This document shows positions 1,366 through 8,727 of a stretch of 8,727 nt of DNA, in pieces. The stretch comes from a bacterium (GTDB lineage: Bacteria; Blakebacterota; Blakebacteria; Blakebacterales; Blakebacteraceae): the NCBI GenBank assembly GCA_025774205.1, contig JALGWK010000110.1, positions 1-8,727 of the forward strand, in the 5' to 3' direction. Position 1 is the first letter of the stretch, and each line of letters begins with the position of its first letter. The notes beneath the pieces were generated by a model that was not told the origin of the DNA, searched no databases, and saw only the letters and a program-made list of their open reading frames with translations. Both the position numbers and the translations under genes were made by a program.

Positions 1366-1401
1366 ACTCGTGCCCTGTCACGCAACAACCGTCGCATTCG
1401 A

Positions 1402-1431
1402 GCGGCGCCGTATCACGGCCGGCCGCGCTTT
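1402..1431 (+). terminator. probable terminator of the beta-propeller gene
   Basis: The stem has an outer part 1402-1406/1422-1426 (GCGGC/GCCGC) and an inner part 1407-1411/1415-1419 (GCCGT/ACGGC), with a 3-base ATC loop and a 2-base bulge on the right arm. GCTTTCTG follows, so the T-run is short. It lies 37 bases after the stop codon, the right place for an intrinsic terminator, but the weak T-tract lowers confidence. Confidence 0.4.
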
Positions 1432-1456
1432 CTGCTCCAATTTATTCCCCAAAAAA

Positions 1457-1470
1457 TGTGGAATTCCACA
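1457..1470. promoter_or_regulatory. perfect 14-bp palindrome, candidate activator (UAS) site
   Basis: TGTGGAATTCCACA is an exact inverted repeat with no spacer, directly preceded by six A residues (1451-1456). It is too short and loopless to act as a terminator, and has the look of an operator for a dimeric helix-turn-helix protein. Its centre is about 176 bp upstream of the start point predicted for the sigma-54 promoter at 1614-1629, within the usual distance for enhancer sites of sigma-54 activators (bEBPs). I saw only one copy in the window. The palindrome is observed; its role as a UAS is inferred from position. Confidence 0.45.
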
Positions 1471-1548
1471 CTTTCTCTGAGCTGATGATACTGATCCGTG
1501 CGCAGATATGTCTACCCGGGTAATACTCGATCTTCCTGTTATCATTTT

Positions 1549-1561
1549 CAAAGTGTTGATT
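1549..1561 (-). promoter_or_regulatory. candidate IHF (DNA-bending) site
   Basis: Read on the minus strand, AATCAACACTTTG fits the IHF consensus WATCAANNNNTTR at every defined position. It lies between the palindrome (1457-1470) and the -24/-12 promoter (1614-1629), around -85 relative to the predicted start. In sigma-54 control regions, IHF bends the DNA there so that the distant activator can touch the polymerase. The match and its position are seen in the sequence; whether this organism has IHF, or uses an HU-like protein instead, is unknown. Confidence 0.45.
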
Positions 1562-1613
1562 GACAACGGCTTACTCGAATTCAGGCAGCCCCTTATCCCG
1601 TCTGTCCATTTTC

Positions 1614-1629
1614 TGGCATGAACCTTGCA
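1614..1629 (+). promoter_or_regulatory. sigma-54 (RpoN) -24/-12 promoter
   Basis: TGGCATGAACCTTGCA, preceded by C, agrees with the sigma-54 consensus YTGGCACGRNNNTTGCW at all fixed positions but one (T for C at 1619). The invariant GG (1615-1616) and GC (1627-1628) are separated by exactly 10 bases, as the sigma factor requires. Transcription should start near 1640, giving a leader of about 53 bases before the ATG at 1693, with the Shine-Dalgarno sequence at 1681-1686. Sigma-54 promoters are silent without an ATP-driven activator, so the downstream lipoprotein is probably made only under a specific signal. Confidence 0.7.
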
Positions 1630-1692
1630 AGAATATCAGTAAAACAACCATGCCTGTCATCTATCGACGCTCCACACCCAGGGAGATGACCG

Positions 1693-2301
1693 ATGAGGAG
1701 ACTACTCGCCGCCGCTGCCGCCCTTCTGCTTACCCTTACCGCCTGTGAAACTAGCACGATCGTCGGTTTCGATCCCGCTGATGCCCCGTCCTACATCTCC
1801 ATCGTCATCGGCTTGACAGCCGGCGAGGTCCTCGATCCGGGAGATGATGAAGATATCGGTCAGGTCCTCGGGGAGAAATGGGCCGAACAGGAGCGTGAGA
1901 ACCGCCTGGAAGATTCGGTACTCAAGGCTGAGAAAATAGCCCTCATGCTGCCTGACCTGATCGACATATCCATTTCCAACATCTCATTCGATAATGAAGA
2001 CACCAGTCGACCATCACTCTGGGATGATGGCTGTGGCGGGTACATGGCTACCATGCTGGACGCTCTTGAGAATGCAGGCCTCGACTACCGGATCCAGGGA
2101 CAGACCACTTCCTGCGAGGAAGCCTTTGTCATCCTTATGCCCAGCGGCCGGGAGGTTCTGGCCAACGTCAGAGTAATGGAGTACTACCTGGTACTCGTTA
2201 AGCCGGTCCCTCCGGATGACCAGAAAGATGCAGTTGTCGCTCCGTCCCATGAGCCTCGTTACGATCCACCCACCACCCGCGAAAAACGGGCCGGTGGGTA
2301 G
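1693..2301 (+). CDS. small lipoprotein of unknown family, apparently sigma-54-controlled
   Basis: This gene encodes a 202-aa exported lipoprotein that I do not recognise. The start is firm: GGGAGA at 1681-1686 lies six bases before the ATG, and the protein opens with MRRLL, an Ala/Leu-rich core and a lipobox LTAC with Cys18. The mature part has a hydrophobic stretch (YISIVIGLTAGEV, 34-46), a charged probably helical segment (about 57-82, EKWAEQERENRLEDS), then a mixed alpha/beta region with two cysteines (C114 and C141) that could form a disulfide. The last 30 or so residues are rich in Pro, Lys, Arg and Asp and look disordered. It has no catalytic motif and no transmembrane span besides the signal. 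The gene stands alone: its own sigma-54 promoter is upstream and the next gene is convergent. It may be an envelope-stress, surface or assembly lipoprotein, but nothing in the sequence decides this. Confidence 0.8.
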   Translation: MRRLLAAAAALLLTLTACETSTIVGFDPADAPSYISIVIGLTAGEVLDPGDDEDIGQVLGEKWAEQERENRLEDSVLKAEKIALMLPDLIDISISNISFDNEDTSRPSLWDDGCGGYMATMLDALENAGLDYRIQGQTTSCEEAFVILMPSGREVLANVRVMEYYLVLVKPVPPDDQKDAVVAPSHEPRYDPPTTREKRAGG

Positions 2302-5086: not shown

Positions 5087-7087
5087 TCAGCTCGCACCCT
5101 CGGGAAGGATGAGACGGTACGCCTGATCTCCCAGCTGGACCTCGACCTGTTCGCCGAGCGCAACGTATTGGCCCAACGACTCATGCAGGTCGAGCAGCCT
5201 TATGAACTCCCGGCTGCCGATTTCGACTTCGATGATCCGGGTTTCCGCCTTGATCGACTGATCGCGCCAGATCTGCTTCTCCCGGTCGAGCTGGAAGGTC
5301 CTCTCCCCCACCCGCTGAACACTGAGGAAGTCGAGCCGGTTGATCAGACTCGAGGTCTGCAGTTCCTGCTCGGCCACGCTCAGGGAGACGTCGCCGACAC
5401 CGGTCTGCTGCCGCGCCCCGGCCCTGCCTCCGTACACGGACGTCTCACGTGCCCGAACCTGCGCGAGCGCCTCATTCGCCATCCGCGCCGACGCCACATC
5501 CCGCTGGATCATCCGTCTGGCTTCTGTCGAGGGAGCCGCTACGGCCATCCGCTCCATCTCATCGAGGTCGTACATGTGCTCTTCGATCACGAGGTAGGCG
5601 GTGAAGGGAGTCACGATCCCGTAGGTCTCCCCCAGGTGCACCACCTCATCCTTCAGTTCGTCAGACTCGCCGTGGAGGCGGATCTGTTCGAGAAGGAAAC
5701 CCACCTTCCGCTGGGCCCACATCGGCGCCAGGAAGGCGGTCTCCGATTCGCGACGCGGGAGGGTGACCTGATGCCGGATTCGCTGTTCCCTGCCGTCTGC
5801 CCGGCCGGTCAGTCTCACCTCCGCCCGTCCGCTGCCCCGGTATCGTCCCATCACGGTGATCTCGGCACCTTCGAAGAGATCAGGGAGCCGGGCCGGAACG
5901 AGATCCCAGGTTTCGGCGCCGACGACTTCGATGGCCAGATCGGCCAGGACCGGGGTGCTGATCCTGCTGAAAAAGGCGCTGATCTTCACCTCCAGGTCCT
6001 CCATCGGTTCGACGTAGGCTGAGTGACCCCCGTGTTCGGTGGCCAGGCGATCGAGCAGGAACGAATTCACATCATACCCGACACCCCAGGTGAAGAGCCG
6101 TACTGATCGCGGCAGCCCCTCGCTCGCCTGCTCGAGGAGCGCATCGGGTTCGGTCTCGCCCACCGTGGGAAGACCGTCGGTGAGGAACACAACATAGGTG
6201 AGGTGAGAGCCGTCACCGTTCTCCTCGACCGATTCGGAAGCGAAATCGAGCGAAGCGGTGAGCGCCCCTTCGATATTCGTTCCACCCTCGGCAGCGAGCT
6301 GCCTGATGTATTCCCGGGCTTCCTTGTAGGTCACCAGCGCGAAACGATCGCGCCCACCGAGAGTGCTCAATCCGAAGTCGAGCGCTTCGATTGCCTGTTC
6401 AAGCTTGCGGTCCCCCCGCATCGATCCGGAAGTGTCGAGAACAAAGATGACATCGCGCGGCAGACCTTCCCGGCGACTGACACTTCCCGGGGTTATCGTC
6501 AGCAGGAAATAACCGTCTTCACCGGGTGGTCGATGGGTCAGCATGCCCATCCCGATCTCCTGTTGCTCACCTGTCCCATAATAGAGGGTGAATCCCTCAC
6601 GGCTCTGGAGCCGCCCCTCGGCGGAGAACTCCGCCCGGGACCCTTCCTCCAGATGTTCGACGCTGAGAGCATGGGTGGGTGAATAGATCGAACGGATCGG
6701 TCGGTCATCACGGATGGTGCCCTCGACCACGAACGAGGTGCTTCTCCTCCGCTGTTGCCCCTCCTGCCCGGGTTGGGTTCTCCTGACCTGACCCGTCTGC
6801 CGGTCGAGTGTCGGTACTATTCCCGGTTCCCGCAAAGCGATCATATCGGGCGGGGCTGTCATGGTGCCCTGTCCGGTGAGATAGCGGAAAACCCGGAAAT
6901 CCCCTTCCTTCGGAAGGATCTGGGCATAGGAGAGGGTCAGGGTGCGTTCCCCGCCCGGTTCGAAGGGGAAGATACGGGCCTGGAATACCCGGTTGTTGAT
7001 CCATTCGAGCAGCGCCGGGTCCCGGATCCGTCGTACGATGTCGAGATAGATAGATGTTCCTGGCCTCTTCCCGGTCGAGTACTTCAC
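5087..7087 (-). CDS. VIT/VWA domain protein, main C-terminal fragment (frameshifted)
   Basis: This is most of an exported protein resembling inter-alpha-trypsin inhibitor heavy chains. The nominal start, a GTG at 7087, is an artefact: true homology in this frame begins at about 7055 with YLDIVRRIRDPALLEW, the second half of a VIT domain. In the repaired 768-aa protein, VIT spans about 42-165 and a von Willebrand A domain about 312-490. The metal-binding MIDAS set is complete: D320-T-S-G-S324, T372 (GGTNIEG) and D406 (TDGLPT), so it can probably bind a divalent metal and a protein ligand. A conserved tail segment, HLGETYGIVTPFTAYLV, follows the VWA domain, and a second region ends in RLILPEGAS. 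I see no C-terminal anchor, LPXTG or PEP-CTERM signal. The likely role is adhesion or protein binding outside the cytoplasm; the partner is unknown. Hairpins at 4915-5001 lie downstream. Confidence 0.85.
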   Translation of the reverse strand: MKYSTGKRPGTSIYLDIVRRIRDPALLEWINNRVFQARIFPFEPGGERTLTLSYAQILPKEGDFRVFRYLTGQGTMTAPPDMIALREPGIVPTLDRQTGQVRRTQPGQEGQQRRRSTSFVVEGTIRDDRPIRSIYSPTHALSVEHLEEGSRAEFSAEGRLQSREGFTLYYGTGEQQEIGMGMLTHRPPGEDGYFLLTITPGSVSRREGLPRDVIFVLDTSGSMRGDRKLEQAIEALDFGLSTLGGRDRFALVTYKEAREYIRQLAAEGGTNIEGALTASLDFASESVEENGDGSHLTYVVFLTDGLPTVGETEPDALLEQASEGLPRSVRLFTWGVGYDVNSFLLDRLATEHGGHSAYVEPMEDLEVKISAFFSRISTPVLADLAIEVVGAETWDLVPARLPDLFEGAEITVMGRYRGSGRAEVRLTGRADGREQRIRHQVTLPRRESETAFLAPMWAQRKVGFLLEQIRLHGESDELKDEVVHLGETYGIVTPFTAYLVIEEHMYDLDEMERMAVAAPSTEARRMIQRDVASARMANEALAQVRARETSVYGGRAGARQQTGVGDVSLSVAEQELQTSSLINRLDFLSVQRVGERTFQLDREKQIWRDQSIKAETRIIEVEIGSREFIRLLDLHESLGQYVALGEQVEVQLGDQAYRLILPEGAS
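7044..7055. repeat. (AGAT)3 tetranucleotide tract at the frameshift site
   Basis: Three perfect AGAT units on the + strand (ATCT in the coding direction) lie exactly where the VIT/VWA reading frame breaks. With two units the codons read N-I-Y-L-D-I-V, as the family expects; with three the frame shifts by one. This is the pattern left by slipped-strand replication. Confidence 0.85.
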
Positions 7088-7397
7088 CCCGAACGGGAAT
7101 GCCGTCCATCGTCAGTCGGAAATCGGTCACCGCCGCGCCCTCAGGCAGGGGGAAGAGATAGATCCCCTCGGCCTGCCAGCTGTTGGGGTTGGCGAAGACC
7201 TGCGTCAGGGTTGAATGAGCCACCCCGCCCCGTATCTCGACACTCAGACTCGCCGAGGCCAGATAGATGGCGTTGGGATGGTCATGTCCCGGCGCGGGTA
7301 CGATGTGGACCTGTTGTCCAGAAGCGGCTGGAGAGGCGATCGCGAGACCCAGAATAGTCAGCGCGAGCGCCCGGACACGTCGTTTCCTCATGTACAT
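7044..7397 (-). CDS. VIT/VWA domain protein, N-terminal fragment (frameshifted)
   Basis: This is the front of the VIT/VWA gene. The start ATG at 7397-7395 has a strong GGAGG six bases upstream. Residues 1-27 form a signal peptide: basic MYMRKRRVR, a hydrophobic core, then ASPAASG before QQ. The first half of the VIT domain follows (about 42-117), with the typical VEIRGGVAHSTLTQVFANP and GEVLDREEARNIYL. At residue 117 the frame runs into an (ATCT)3 tract and is lost: it stays open to 6708, but residues after YL resemble nothing in the family, while the other frame carries on correctly. Taking one 4-base unit out joins the fragments exactly into a 768-aa protein. Confidence 0.8.
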
Positions 7398-7596: not shown

Positions 7597-8727
7597 ATGG
7601 CTGTGAAGCTGTACCGTAAGTCCGCCCTGGCGGTTCTGGTGACCGGGATCCTGTTCCTGCCATTATCGGGGACGGTCCGTGCCCAAGCGGGATCGTACGA
7701 TTCCTATCTCAATTTCGAAGATCTTTCGTCAAGGCTGCAGAATATCGCCGGGGCGCATCGTGACCTCTGCACCCTGGAAAGTCTGGCCACGACCGCCGGC
7801 GGAAGGGACCTGTGGCTGCTGACCATCGGTAATCCGAACAACGGGAACACAGATGAGAATCCCGCTCTGCTGGTGGTCGCGAACCTGGAATCGAATCATC
7901 TGATCGGCAGCAACGCTGCCCTTTTCCTGATCGACCAGCTCGTGAACGGCTATGGTACCGACCAGGCGATCACCAGTCTGGTCAATGCCCATACCTTCTA
8001 TGTGATCCCCCGTCTCAATCCCGACGGCGCCGAACTCTTCTGGTCGAACCCCGAGACCGAGATCCCCTGGAAGGGAGACCCGGAAGACGAAGACCGGGAC
8101 GGCAGCGCGGATGAAGACCCGGGTGACGACATCAATGGTGATGGCCTGGTGACACAGATGCGTGTCCGGGATCCTGAGGGGATATGGATGGTCGATCCCG
8201 ACGAACCGAGACTGCTCAAGCGGGCCGATCGCACCCGGGGGGAACGGGGCATCTATTCCATCTACACCGAGGGTCTGGATGACGACGGCGACGGTGAATA
8301 CAACGAAGATGGTCTCGGCGGTACCCATCTCAACCGGAACTGGCCCCATCAGTACCCCCATTTCCAGGATCACAGCGGGCTCAACATGGTCTCGGAGATC
8401 GAGACGAGGGCTCTGGCCGATTTCGCGTTCACGCATCGCAATCTGGCGAGGGCTCTGGCCGATTTCGCGTTCACGCATCGCAATCTGGCAATGACCGTCA
8501 CTTTCAGCCCCTATGACAACCTTCTCAAACAGCCGGAATCGAGACCGGAGCGCGCGGCGCCGGTGAACCTCCCCGAGGGCCTGGAACTTCCCCCCGGCAT
8601 GAGCATGGCAGATGTCATGGAGTTCTTCCGGGAGCGGAGCGCGCCGACTTCCGTACTGCAGCAGGACGCGCCCTACTTCCGCTTCATCTCGGAACAGTTC
8701 GTGGAGATGACCGGACTTTCGGGACAG
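7597..8727 (+). CDS. noncanonical M14 zinc-carboxypeptidase-like exported protein (3' end outside window)
   Basis: The first 377 residues are present, open to the window edge. Start: ATG 7597 with GGGGGAG just before it (short spacing); in-frame ATGs at 7585, 7564 and 7549 are possible but would lengthen the N-terminus. Residues 1-30 form a signal peptide cleaved near TVRA/QAG. The fold is M14: ICxLE-SLATTAGGRDLWLLTIG, then LLVVANLESNHLIGSNAA, FYVIPRLNPDGAE, HLNRNWPHQYP (244-254) and SEIETRALADF. Between 161 and 242 is an acidic insert with calcium-loop-like DEDRDGSADED, DDINGDGLVTQMRV and DDDGDGEYNEDG, typical of one subfamily. In standard carboxypeptidases zinc is held by HxxE and a later His in HSYG. 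Here the first motif reads E98-S-N-H101, reversed, and the later site reads VTFSPYDN without His; the N-R of NRN (246-247), which binds substrate in the family, is kept. Activity is therefore uncertain. A 14-residue duplication (271-298) is also present. Confidence 0.85.
   Translation, partial: MAVKLYRKSALAVLVTGILFLPLSGTVRAQAGSYDSYLNFEDLSSRLQNIAGAHRDLCTLESLATTAGGRDLWLLTIGNPNNGNTDENPALLVVANLESNHLIGSNAALFLIDQLVNGYGTDQAITSLVNAHTFYVIPRLNPDGAELFWSNPETEIPWKGDPEDEDRDGSADEDPGDDINGDGLVTQMRVRDPEGIWMVDPDEPRLLKRADRTRGERGIYSIYTEGLDDDGDGEYNEDGLGGTHLNRNWPHQYPHFQDHSGLNMVSEIETRALADFAFTHRNLARALADFAFTHRNLAMTVTFSPYDNLLKQPESRPERAAPVNLPEGLELPPGMSMADVMEFFRERSAPTSVLQQDAPYFRFISEQFVEMTGLSGQ
8405..8488 (+). repeat. exact 42-bp tandem duplication inside the M14-like gene
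   Basis: Copies at 8405-8446 and 8447-8488 are identical in all 42 bases. The duplication is in frame and gives RALADFAFTHRNLA twice (residues 271-284 and 285-298), in the helix that follows the SExETRAL motif. Identity at every third codon position means it is very recent or an assembly artefact. Confidence 0.95.

Follow-up and report, generated by a model that had tools for sequence, protein, structure and literature searches.

A lipoprotein gene with a predicted sigma-54 control region and a putative operator in common with a repeat-peptide locus

We find that the gene for a predicted lipoprotein of no known family is preceded by a putative sigma-54 control region, the operator of which recurs upstream of a gene for a repeat peptide elsewhere in the same genome. 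From sequence comparison, we consider it quite probable that the two genes form a small sigma-54 regulon, in which the lipoprotein gene has a working promoter with a distal enhancer and has its operator in common with the repeat-peptide locus. The window, i.e. the whole stretch of 8,727 nucleotides that was analysed, is contig C356 of the draft genome G000 (3.09 Mb, 527 contigs, 86% complete), and we know of no cultured member of its lineage. The comparison set consisted of three other genomes of the family, i.e. G001 from the same genus as well as G002 and G003 (63% complete) from the same family, and motif backgrounds were based on whole-genome pattern searches together with individual loci.

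The lipoprotein gene (1693-2301, plus strand) encodes 202 amino acids with a signal peptide and the lipobox LTAC with Cys18, as read from the sequence. The protein had no match in a Pfam and NCBIfam search, a peptide-pattern search in GTDB species genomes and viral contigs returned no homologues, and an AlphaFold prediction from the single sequence was uninformative (mean pLDDT 36). Among the family genomes compared, the sole orthologue is found in G001 (44% identity over 201 amino acids), where it has the same neighbours on both sides. The earlier note had described the gene as an orphan; this is correct for its own neighbourhood but not genome-wide, as its operator is common to a second promoter elsewhere. 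The gene upstream of it (117-1365) has its own lipobox (LGAC) and an apparent frameshift near 385, which gives two ORFs (one to 410, the other from 433); the G001 homologue ends with its contig before the frameshift point, and a sequencing error and a real break are indistinguishable here. Further along the window, a gene for a VWA-domain protein (5087-7397, minus strand) lies in two overlapping ORFs with an apparent frameshift at ~7050-7090, and an M14 peptidase gene contains an in-frame 42-bp tandem duplication at 8409-8494 (RALADFAFTHRNLA twice), which is perhaps an assembly artefact.

The -24/-12 element TGGCATGAACCTTGCA is located at 1614-1629 on the plus strand, and transcription is predicted to start near 1640. 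It had been described as having exact GG-N10-GC spacing and one mismatch; the spacing holds, while the mismatch exists only relative to TGGCACG, and the element fits TGGCAYRN4TTGCW with zero mismatches. This strict pattern has three matches in 3.09 Mb, each followed after 22 to 63 nt by an ORF, i.e. the lipoprotein gene of the window, a pilC-like gene and a response-regulator-like gene. The sites of the latter two genes lie directly downstream of bEBP genes and, thus, follow the pattern expected for working sigma-54 promoters. Moreover, G000 encodes one rpoN (Sigma54_DBD match 7e-62) and 13 bEBPs, the two components on whose presence the earlier note had made its reading depend. In the upstream region of the G001 orthologue, the only one available for this comparison, TGGCATGATCATTGCG is found at the position matching the -24/-12 element of the window, and both this element and the operator block described below are kept. 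Other sigma-54 promoters of G000 (at loci L028, L031, L037 and L036) have distinct upstream inverted repeats (TGCACAATATATTGTGCA, ATTTGCACTATCTATTGTGCAAAT, CATTGCATTTTGCAATG and GTTGCAACGCATGCAAC), which are probably the operators of other bEBPs; two of these promoters precede pilin-like genes.

The elements might instead have arisen by chance, with the lipoprotein gene transcribed from an ordinary promoter or by read-through from upstream and the palindrome at 1457-1470 weakly terminating the gene before it. A scan for terminator-like structures does list 1457-1470; however, the tail of this structure has only 4 T, no plus-strand sigma-70-like site was found in the region, and the elements are kept in the orthologue as well as common to the second promoter. 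The terminator and sigma-70 readings of the control region were set aside as being without plus-strand support, and we regard this explanation as highly improbable. In total, the presence of rpoN and of bEBPs, the conservation in the orthologue and the enrichment of IHF boxes reported below support the proposed sigma-54/bEBP switch, and the sequence argues that the lipoprotein gene is almost certainly under sigma-54 control.

The perfect 14-bp palindrome TGTGGAATTCCACA noted upstream of the promoter is present at 1457-1470. Its centre had been placed about 176 bp upstream of the predicted start, which is correct for the predicted transcription start (~1640); counted from the ATG at 1693, the distance is 229 bp. 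Perfect palindromes of this length are not rare (12 in 118 kb of G000), and the G001 orthologue has TGTGGACTTCTGCA at the corresponding place, which is no longer palindromic. Near-copies of the palindrome on contigs C419, C37, C104 and C220 are located within or across ORFs, lack an adjacent strict sigma-54 site and were dismissed as chance matches. We think it probable that the functional operator extends beyond the palindrome and has a different architecture, i.e. a putative bEBP operator block TTCCCCA-AAAAA-TGTGGA-A-TTCCACA at 1445-1470 on the plus strand, which consists of an inverted repeat with a 5-bp spacer (1445-1462) and a directly repeated half-site 19 bp further on (1464-1470). The palindrome can now be read as the junction at which the right arm, TGTGGAATTC, of the inverted repeat meets the following half-site, GAATTCCACA, via a self-complementary GAATTC.

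Near-matches to the palindrome led to the second promoter, on contig C130 of G000, where three GAATTCCACA-like half-sites lie upstream of TGGCACGCGCTTTGCG. A composite search, in which a half-site had to be followed at 150-180 bp by a strict sigma-54 site, gave six matches in four genomes, and a reversed control gave none; all six are in the promoters of the lipoprotein gene (G000 and G001) or of the repeat gene (G000, G001 and G002). A relaxed version gave three extra matches (G000:C72, G000:C372 and G002:C22), which were rejected; the G002:C22 match precedes a pilC-like gene, and its TTCCGCA was taken as a chance occurrence. In all three genomes, the repeat-gene promoter has three half-sites at steps of 24 and 19 bp, and TGCGGA follows the first half-site after five bases, which gives the inverted repeat TTCCRCA-N5-TGYGGA. 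Exact matches to this repeat occur four times in ~10 Mb, all of them in lipoprotein-gene or repeat-gene promoters, where about one would be expected by chance if all bases were equally frequent. The window itself has TTCCCCA-N5-TGTGGA (1445-1462) and the orthologue TTCCACA-N5-TGTGGA, within an upstream region that carries TTCCACAAATAATGTGGA. The distance from the centre of the repeat to the -24 GG is 151, 152 and 152 bp in three promoters, 161 bp in the window, i.e. about one helical turn more, and 177 bp in G002.

While the operator rule as a whole was found by inspecting five promoters, the pattern TTCCRCA-N12-TTCCACA was derived only from the three repeat-gene promoters in three genomes and, therefore, is a partly independent test on the window. 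In 372 kb scanned with up to two mismatches, it was found in the window at 1445-1470 with one mismatch, in the orthologous lipoprotein promoter with two, and at one unrelated place; among 10,000 shuffles of window positions 1366-1613, four matched as well as the window. It could be argued that the 14-bp palindrome itself is the operator and the wider block incidental, as the palindrome is perfect and includes two overlapping copies of the half-site GAATTCCACA of the repeat-gene promoter. However, in the orthologue the N5 inverted repeat is retained and the palindrome broken, and none of the four other promoters contains the palindrome. The palindrome as a conserved operator is, thus, not borne out, and we consider this alternative distinctly unlikely. 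Altogether, the five sequences from three genomes suggest that the lipoprotein-gene and repeat-gene promoters very probably have a common operator. To our knowledge, no described operator matches TTCCRCA in paired half-sites repeated at 19 bp.

Between the operator block and the promoter, the full IHF consensus previously reported is present as the exact match AATCAACACTTTG at 1549-1561 on the minus strand. Its chance frequency at equal base use, given as 1 in 65,000 for each position and strand, is actually 1 in 32,768. When either strand of the 143-nt stretch was considered, an exact match occurred in 1.5% of dinucleotide shuffles, which on its own is modest; when up to one mismatch was allowed, the figure was 23.5%. 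Twelve sigma-54 sites of G000 were chosen by eye as intergenic and ORF-preceding before any boxes were counted; an exact IHF box lies at most 140 bp upstream of five of them (four of 11 when the window is excluded), with a mean of 0.15 in shuffled sequences and none of 2000 shuffle sets reaching five. An exact box was found at none of the four poorly placed sigma-54 sites of G000, and the reversed pattern had zero matches at the sigma-54 sites of this genome. This enrichment upstream of G000 sigma-54 sites supports that the box at 1549-1561 is probably real. In the relatives, none of eight strict sigma-54 sites has an exact box; with at most one mismatch, boxes are present at four of seven sites with 1.7 expected, a weak enrichment that was reached in 62 of 1000 shuffles. 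The G001 orthologue has only TGTCAATATGTTG, a site with one mismatch, at a comparable distance. We therefore regard the box as probably functional and subject to turnover between species; in G000, sigma-54 promoters are marked by boxes of the IHF type. As to ihfA and ihfB, for which the earlier note had proposed to look, G000 encodes two HU/IHF-family proteins, both of which score below the curated IHF and HU cut-offs, i.e. one on contig C136 with its best score to IHF-beta (98.5 bits; cut-off 115) and a second with its best score to HU. From the sequence, assistance by IHF at the lipoprotein promoter appears fairly likely.

The second gene with this operator (G000:C130, L054:3660-4163) encodes near-identical 15-residue repeats, MTDEPRKPVFKENEELEEKEAPRRAP(xGEELQEKEAPRRAP)n. 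It is present in three genomes with repeats that have changed between genomes, and its product is possibly an undescribed exported peptide. The locus also encodes two M50-type intramembrane peptidases, one of them weakly PqqD-like at its N-terminus, together with an adaptor of the HlyD type, a channel of the TolC type and a kelch protein. Partner-switching proteins of the RsbW, STAS and SpoIIE type are encoded there as well, the first two of these identified by reading the sequence. Over long stretches, the peptidases are similar to the RiPP metalloproteases of the daptide (NF041824) and YydH/LiaK (NF058609) types, and the PqqD-like N-terminus of one of them is a further likeness; however, they score 172 and 30 bits to NF041824 (cut-off 300) and 53 and 23 bits to NF058609 (cut-off 225), and the precursor is a long perfect repeat. 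With 172 bits against the 300 required, the locus is not assigned to the daptide RiPPs. In two genomes, a gene that by eye resembles a lysine 2,3-aminomutase (radical SAM) is present in the broader surroundings of the repeat gene (L107:1592-3070 and L174:15394-16500).

A 581-residue GAF-AAA+ bEBP is encoded at a distance of three genes from the repeat gene in G001. The orthologue of this GAF-bEBP in G002 (~59% identity) is on a contig that begins inside the repeat gene, from which it follows that the two genes are direct neighbours. No orthologue was found in the G000 assembly, in which none of the 13 bEBPs is orthologous to the candidate, and neither the promoter nor the GAF-bEBP was found in the 63% complete G003. 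Contig C130 of G000 breaks off within the kelch gene, one gene short of where the GAF-bEBP gene would be expected; given this break and the completeness of 86%, an assembly gap is the likely reason for its absence. Judging from gene neighbourhood, the GAF-bEBP is likely the activator of both promoters. Alternatively, the promoter could be a sigma-54 promoter with IHF assistance that is activated by one of the 13 other bEBPs, none of which is an orthologue of the candidate, and there would be no dedicated-regulator tie to the repeat-peptide locus. This we consider unlikely: the common operator lies beside the GAF-bEBP gene in two genera, the contig break would explain the absence from the G000 assembly, and other G000 sigma-54 promoters bear inverted repeats of a different kind, e.g. 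TGCACAATATATTGTGCA or CATTGCATTTTGCAATG.

With the GAF-AAA+ protein encoded beside the repeat gene as the most likely activator, we propose that a bEBP dimer or higher oligomer would bind 1445-1470, ~160 bp upstream of the -24 GG, and that an IHF-like protein at 1549-1561 would probably bend the DNA. With this bend, the AAA+ hexamer would be able to reach RNA polymerase-sigma-54 at 1614-1629, and the lipoprotein gene would be transcribed from near 1640. Sequence comparison shows the elements and their conservation, the common operator and the neighbourhood of the bEBP gene; binding by the bEBP, bending by IHF and the identity of the activator are what we infer from this arrangement, as is a functional link between the lipoprotein and the repeat peptide. 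The lipoprotein gene and the repeat gene would probably be turned on together, and the lipoprotein would be a co-regulated envelope partner of the peptide/export locus. Some functional partnership between the two products, in the form of immunity, export aid or surface anchoring, is perhaps evenly balanced between true and not. A more specific version, in which a dedicated GAF-bEBP controls through two promoters a new exported repeat peptide, possibly processed by the PqqD/M50 proteins, and a separately encoded partner or immunity lipoprotein, is tentative and on balance doubtful.

Enhancer, IHF box and -24/-12 element are ordered and spaced as in sigma-54 promoters of the NtrC, NifA and orp type, which have a bEBP enhancer and IHF, and the genome of the window has rpoN, bEBPs and HU/IHF-family proteins; a role of IHF was shown at the sigma-54-dependent orp operons of Desulfovibrio vulgaris (PMC3897727). 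By contrast with that type, the operator sequence is different, the lineage is uncultured, and the target is a lipoprotein of no known family. Sigma-54 control of envelope and lipoprotein genes has been described in a comparative study (PMC3162934) and is also known for natural-product genes (PMC7910581). The targets here, an outer-surface lipoprotein and a peptide/export locus, are of a similar sort but lie outside any described family. Literature searches for sigma-54 in Latescibacterota, and for RiPP loci with such a make-up, gave nothing directly relevant.

Altogether, the kind of control is known, and its members, i.e. the lipoprotein and the repeat locus, are new. What was an isolated promoter reading becomes a testable regulon, as the putative common operator connects a family-less lipoprotein with an undescribed repeat-peptide/export locus and points to a candidate regulator. 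This operator link would be the first handle on the role of both the lipoprotein and the repeat peptide.
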